NCBI GenBank assembly: GCA_039583875.1
Contig: CM077167.1
Span: 147,081,010 to 147,145,009 of the forward strand
Direction: 5' to 3'
Length of the DNA stretch: 64,000 nucleotides
Source of the DNA: Platanthera guangdongensis
Lineage: Eukaryota; Streptophyta; Magnoliopsida; Asparagales; Orchidaceae
The notes under the pieces were generated by a model that saw nothing but the letters and a program-made list of their open reading frames with translations, ran no database searches and was not told the origin of the DNA. Every line of letters starts with the position of its first letter. Within the stretch, counting starts at the first letter, position 1. This document shows positions 37,862 through 37,957 of this stretch, piece after piece. Made by a program: the position numbers and the translations under genes.

Positions 37862-37957
37862 GTATGATTTAATTAATTCACATATTTTTATGGTCTAACT
37901 TGAATTGTTTAAGACTTACGAGACACCTAGCAACAAGTTTTGTTTGTTGGTACTTAG
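37862..37957 (+). other. Predicted 96-nt intron between gag and protease (Tekay B)
   Basis: GTATGATTTAA at the donor, CTAAC branch-like sequence at about 37892, and TTGGTACTTAG at the acceptor. Gly codon split in phase 1. Removal joins DVIAG to TVIIGGKTAYVLFDTG without a break. There is a single in-frame TAA at 37870. Confidence 0.72.

Follow-up and report, generated by a model that had tools for sequence, protein, structure and literature searches.

Three Ty3/gypsy retrotransposon copies (elements A, B and C) in a stretch of Platanthera guangdongensis DNA carry, at the junction of gag and protease, a short segment that is strongly supported by its sequence, in two families, as a spliceosomal intron. 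The stretch of 64,000 nucleotides (nt; contig CM077167.1, forward strand, positions 147,081,010 to 147,145,009) is called the window below, and all coordinates refer to it. Partial splicing of this intron is the probable mode of expression: unspliced RNA would be the source of Gag and the genome, and spliced RNA would be the source of Gag-Pol. Control of the Gag to Gag-Pol ratio by splicing is a sound inference. How plant elements with a single polyprotein produce more Gag than Pol is a long-standing question.

Position, ends and composition of the candidate introns

The candidate intron of element B extends from 37862 to 37957 on the plus strand (96 nt), is bounded by CAG/GTATGA...ACTTAG/G and contains an in-frame UAA at 37870-37872. 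The corresponding segment of A (22138-22214, plus strand, 77 nt) is bounded by CAG/GTATGA...TGCTAG/G with UAA at 22146-22148, and that of C (60067-60161, minus strand, 95 nt) by CAG/GTATGA...ACTTAG/G with UAA at 60153-60151. All three are in phase 1, interrupting one Gly codon between gag and protease after its first base. When the segment is retained, Gag gains Met-Ser (A) or Met-Ile (B and C) and then, in each copy, meets a UAA that occupies intron nt 9-11. An earlier note on this DNA had given these coordinates and lengths, the GTATGA donors, the YTAG acceptors and the phase-1 Gly codon, all of which proved exact. It had also placed the end of Gag two or three codons into the retained intron; the end does fall shortly after the donor, but always after two residues. 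Three elements were counted in that note, and three copies do carry the segment, but B and C are members of one family (DNA identity of 93.2% in gag and 92.7% in the compared part of pol), so the independent evidence amounts to two families. Element A represents a separate family whose protease-reverse transcriptase (RT) region is 55% identical to that of B. Families this divergent nevertheless agree in the site, phase and donor of the segment and in its UAA, which supports an intron.

All GT-AG pairs at least 60 nt apart, with the donor from -60 to +30, were enumerated for each copy. The enumeration gave 68, 43 and 48 pairs for A, B and C, respectively, of which 10, 7 and 7 restore an open Gag-protease frame. 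Among the enumerated pairs, only the one reported here occupies the same place in all three copies, and only this one puts the Gly of the V-x-x-G motif 14 residues before the catalytic Asp. Motifs resembling the branch-site consensus, CTTAC (A and B) and CTTAT (C), are found upstream of the acceptor, 16, 39 and 38 nt from the intron end in A, B and C, respectively, although motifs this short arise by chance.

The GC content of the segment is 0.286 in A, 0.292 in B and 0.305 in C, and the averages for windows of the same size are 0.496, 0.508 and 0.518, respectively. No same-sized window across gag and the beginning of pol has a GC content as low (0 of 2149 for A, 0 of 2459 for B and 0 of 2607 for C). 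The U content is 48, 42 and 39% in the segments of A, B and C and 29, 21 and 19% in the 52-nt flanks. U-richness is a criterion that was also applied to the intron of BARE1, according to the cited passages of PMC3735527.

Comparison of B with C reveals changes at 18 of 95 aligned positions of the segment, at 67 of 1759 positions in codon positions 1 and 2, and at 121 of 880 in codon position 3. The divergence of the segment thus differs from that of codon positions 1 and 2 (p = 9e-8) and is not distinguished from that of position 3 (p = 0.17), which indicates that the exons were under selection for protein and the segment was not. Position 3 itself differs from positions 1 and 2 with p = 2e-19. 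The earlier note had proposed to test whether the splice signals are more conserved than the intron body. This holds between A and B/C, where the ends are alike and the bodies are no more similar than shuffled sequences (441 and 758 of 1000 shuffles score as high); the score for the whole intron is equaled by 17 of 1000 shuffles for A and B, owing to the ends, and by 62 of 1000 for A and C. Between B and C the support is weak, with no change among 17 end positions (11 nt on the donor side and 6 nt on the acceptor side) and 18 changes among 78 body positions (p = 0.036, for a cut chosen post hoc).

Related proteins were compared at the same junction. Among 137 relatives, 67 extend 15 or more residues upstream of the catalytic Asp, many of these being near-copies or gene models. 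The residue 14 positions before this Asp is Gly in 63 of the 67 and Ser, Ser, Glu and Cys in the remaining four. Elements A, B and C match this Gly register once the segment is omitted. Gene models could hide an intron removed by the annotator, so loci available as DNA count for more. Nine such loci (L001-L009) are located on eukaryote-like contigs within bacterial genome records. In six of them (L001, L003, L004, L005, L006 and L008) the reading continues across the junction with no segment; L004 and L005 are near-copies and L006 has a stop further upstream. Loci L002 and L007 stop short of the junction, and L009 has another layout. The earlier note had named as contrary evidence relatives in which the segment is an open, conserved coding linker; the relatives found instead lack the segment altogether and read through the same Gly. 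The nine loci are Ty3/gypsy sequences, mostly plant-like, in records of Mycobacterium, Streptomyces, Solirubrobacter and others, and look like contamination. No relatives were found in three scans of viral contigs.

A search with Gag gave 17 relatives; its length limit favors Gag-only proteins, so that the counts are not frequencies. The best of these are from Platanthera: P0121 is 75% identical to C, and P0137 is 63% identical to A. The protein ends 2 residues after the homologous Gly in P0137, 5 in P0121, 7 in P0128 and 10 in P0126, and the ends of the two Platanthera Gag models were counted in favor of partial splicing. P0123 and P0130 continue past the Gly into protease-like sequence, and P0134 ends 12 unrelated residues past a similar Gly. 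The junction is not visible in 10 of the 17.

Proposed partial splicing and alternative explanations

In the proposed mechanism, RNA that keeps the intron would be translated to Gag, terminating with G-M-S or G-M-I at the UAA 9-11 nt inside the intron. The same RNA would also be packaged and copied, and the fraction of RNA that is spliced would be translated to Gag-protease-RT, or Gag-Pol. Splicing, its partial extent and its setting of the Gag to Gag-Pol ratio are all inferred here. The integrated copies A and B still carry the segment, which implies that the RNA from which they were copied was unspliced.

Several observations weigh against partial splicing as described. With internal stops and a Gag that lacks a clear AUG, B and C are not intact. 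Alternative acceptor sites are present among the enumerated splice pairs, and the donor differs at +4 and +6 from the consensus, although these departures would suit partial splicing. The Platanthera gene model P0123 (KSP39_PZI020165) continues from Gag into protease, and an intron removed during annotation would look alike. The intron bodies of A and B/C resemble each other only at the level of chance, so common descent of the intron is unsupported. The intron could easily be lost when spliced RNA is reverse-transcribed, and its gain could recur at a CAG/GT site. In a broader and tentative proposal, considered less likely than not, a chromovirus lineage in orchid-like plants would have kept one junction intron as a switch across families 55% identical in protease-RT, with unspliced genome RNA yielding Gag and spliced RNA as the sole source of the enzymes.

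A real intron that is spliced from most transcripts, with unspliced genomes as leakage and with no control of the ratio, is the alternative that survives best, and it is considered unlikely. The ends CAG/GT...TAG/G and the U-rich body are those of a normal plant intron (for U-richness, see the cited passages of PMC3735527), and the sequence does not constrain the fraction of RNA that is spliced. The three copies seen, from two families, nevertheless all keep the segment, though copying of spliced RNA would delete it, and this may speak against splicing of most transcripts.

Production of Gag-Pol by recoding with no splicing, through a -1 frameshift in A and readthrough of a stop in B, is improbable. 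The reading frames of A and B would permit it: the protease frame of A lies at -1 relative to gag, is open across the segment and overlaps the end of gag, and in B a single UAA separates gag from protease within one common frame. The protease frame of C is also -1 but has two stops within the segment, where the gag frame has five. With lengths of 77, 96 and 95 nt the segment has no single reading frame shared by the copies, the relation of the gag and protease frames varies among them, and stops are present in all three frames of the segment in B and C. No heptamer of the type X-XXY-YYZ with A or T triplets is present in the 80 nt searched. Recoding accounts neither for the U-richness nor for the precise alignment with relatives in which the segment is absent. 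As a mechanism common to all copies it is excluded by the stops in C.

The least probable explanation, to which we give very little weight, is that the segment is debris from insertion or decay in dead copies and resembles an intron by chance; B and C do contain further stops and a copia insertion interrupts C, but site and phase are identical in two families and the exons remained under selection after the separation of B and C, as the excess of changes at codon position 3 demonstrates. Partial splicing of an intron remains the preferred explanation.

Structure and classification of the elements

Element A (18802-27624, plus strand) is a complete insertion flanked on both sides by AACAC. Its long terminal repeats (LTRs) begin at 18802 and 25656, are about 1970 nt in length and are 97.3% identical. 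The gag coding part is located at 20994-22137 (PF03732 and PF00098) and the protease and RT coding part at 22215-23371, both on the plus strand.

Element B (33070-44689, plus strand) has CGGCG on both sides; this duplication is less certain because the surrounding repeat array itself contains CGGCG. The LTRs align in stretches of 2653 nt (94.5% identity) and 403 nt (97.3% identity). The gag coding part before the intron (36892-37861, plus strand) matches PF03732 and has a CCHC knuckle recognized by eye, and the part after the intron, from 37958 to 39636 on the plus strand, codes for protease, RT and RNase H.

Element C, on the minus strand, has a gag coding part at 60162-61287 and a part coding for protease and the start of RT at 59336-60066; a stop follows, and then the remaining RT in the same frame. 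Over the 818 nt in which its LTRs align contiguously, they are 98.0% identical. The copia element that interrupts C at about 50858-58332 has LTRs that are 98.9% identical and contains, at 52478-56683 on the minus strand, one open frame with a length of 1401 codons.

For the start of Gag, examined at 36542-36892 in B and 61287-61469 (minus strand) in C, no clear AUG is evident: the first in-frame Met is that of MGGTP in B and one within the Gag domain in C. The leader, almost the same in the two elements, contains ACAATGGTGCC, with a stop seven codons past the AUG. Either a leader intron or initiation of Gag at a non-AUG codon is possible in B and C. Units of about 95-103 nt that have a core similar to CACGGGCGTGTCCCTACCCGTGT are repeated in tandem in the LTRs of B and C (33239-33531, 41610-41906 and 48795-48966), and the translated frames of the LTR of A (18807-19304) contain a motif that resembles this core by eye.

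The sequences point to Ty3/gypsy elements that are chromovirus-like. The Pfam matches of B follow the Ty3/gypsy order of Gag, protease, RT, RNase H and integrase. Those of A are Gag, protease, RT and a Tf2-1-like SH3 domain, from a query that excluded the RNase H and integrase core. A chromodomain (PF00385) was matched in part of C with an E value of 8e-4 and 19.7 bits, below the cut-off of 25.1, and the terminal pol segments of A and B gave no chromodomain match with Pfam. In a comparison of primer sites, the sequence after the LTR is TGGTATCAGA in A and C and TGATATCAGA in B. The full tRNA-Met primer motif, TGGTATCAGAGC, was located only at position 8805. A tRNA-Met-type primer site is typical of most chromoviruses, as stated in the cited part of PMC6317226.

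A tree of RT sequences was constructed from 57 rows, obtained from 122 cropped sequences by thinning at 90% identity; C was dropped for its length, and the tree contains no named clade references. In this tree, for which the bootstrap had not settled, A is unplaced and B joins P0004 (100/99). A single clade of A, B and P0004 is not rejected (p-AU 0.534). P0004 begins within the protease, so it does not cover the junction.

Comparison with known systems

Among the papers listed in searches of the open-licence literature, titles and the beginnings of abstracts gave no description of a junction intron in Tekay/Del, the lineage to which the earlier note had assigned the three elements. The Tekay-clade elements Bongo1-3 of Beta vulgaris are chromoviruses with a gag-pol region of identical domain order, but in the chromoviruses of Beta, the Tekay clade included, gag and pol form a continuous open reading frame (ORF), as described in the passages cited from PMC3605345. 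Most plant groups have one ORF, and Bianca and Ogre are singled out for separated ORFs in the relevant portion of PMC6317226. An orchid element of the Tat type likewise has a single ORF for Gag and Pol, according to an excerpt of PMC9289625. Plant LTR elements are described as generally free of introns, Ogre and EVADE being the exceptions that stand out, in the cited section of a 2025 review (PMC12786077).

CRR, the rice centromeric chromovirus, belongs to the CRM clade. Its transcripts are said to be spliced, as proposed here, and CRR and Ogre are the gypsy elements named as spliced in the cited passages of PMC3735527. Bianca (Ty1/copia) has two ORFs with an average gap of 172 bp; it belongs to another superfamily, and the cited part of PMC6317226 reports a measured intron for Ogre only. 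In BARE1 and EVADE/EVD (Ty1/copia), splicing near gag separates a Gag-only RNA from a Gag-Pol RNA, and the intron of BARE1 is U-rich and 104 nt in length (passages of PMC3735527 and PMC12786077). These systems are opposite in sense, since their spliced RNA yields Gag only, whereas here the unspliced RNA would do so.

If partial splicing is correct, the elements in the window would have an Ogre-like answer to the supply of excess Gag, at another junction and in a lineage for which a single ORF has been described. Part of the RNA would have to escape splicing and yet leave the nucleus, a step that has not been directly studied in plants according to the cited section of the 2025 review (PMC12786077). 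In Ogre (Ty3/gypsy, Tat lineage), as proposed here, an intron separates the ORFs of the polyprotein and is spliced in only part of the transcripts, which gives the full polyprotein (cited passages of PMC6317226). Ogre differs in that it is not a chromovirus, that its gap averages 274 bp rather than 77-96, and that its intron lies between protease and RT, whereas the segment described here precedes the protease, which in A and B is in the same frame as RT.
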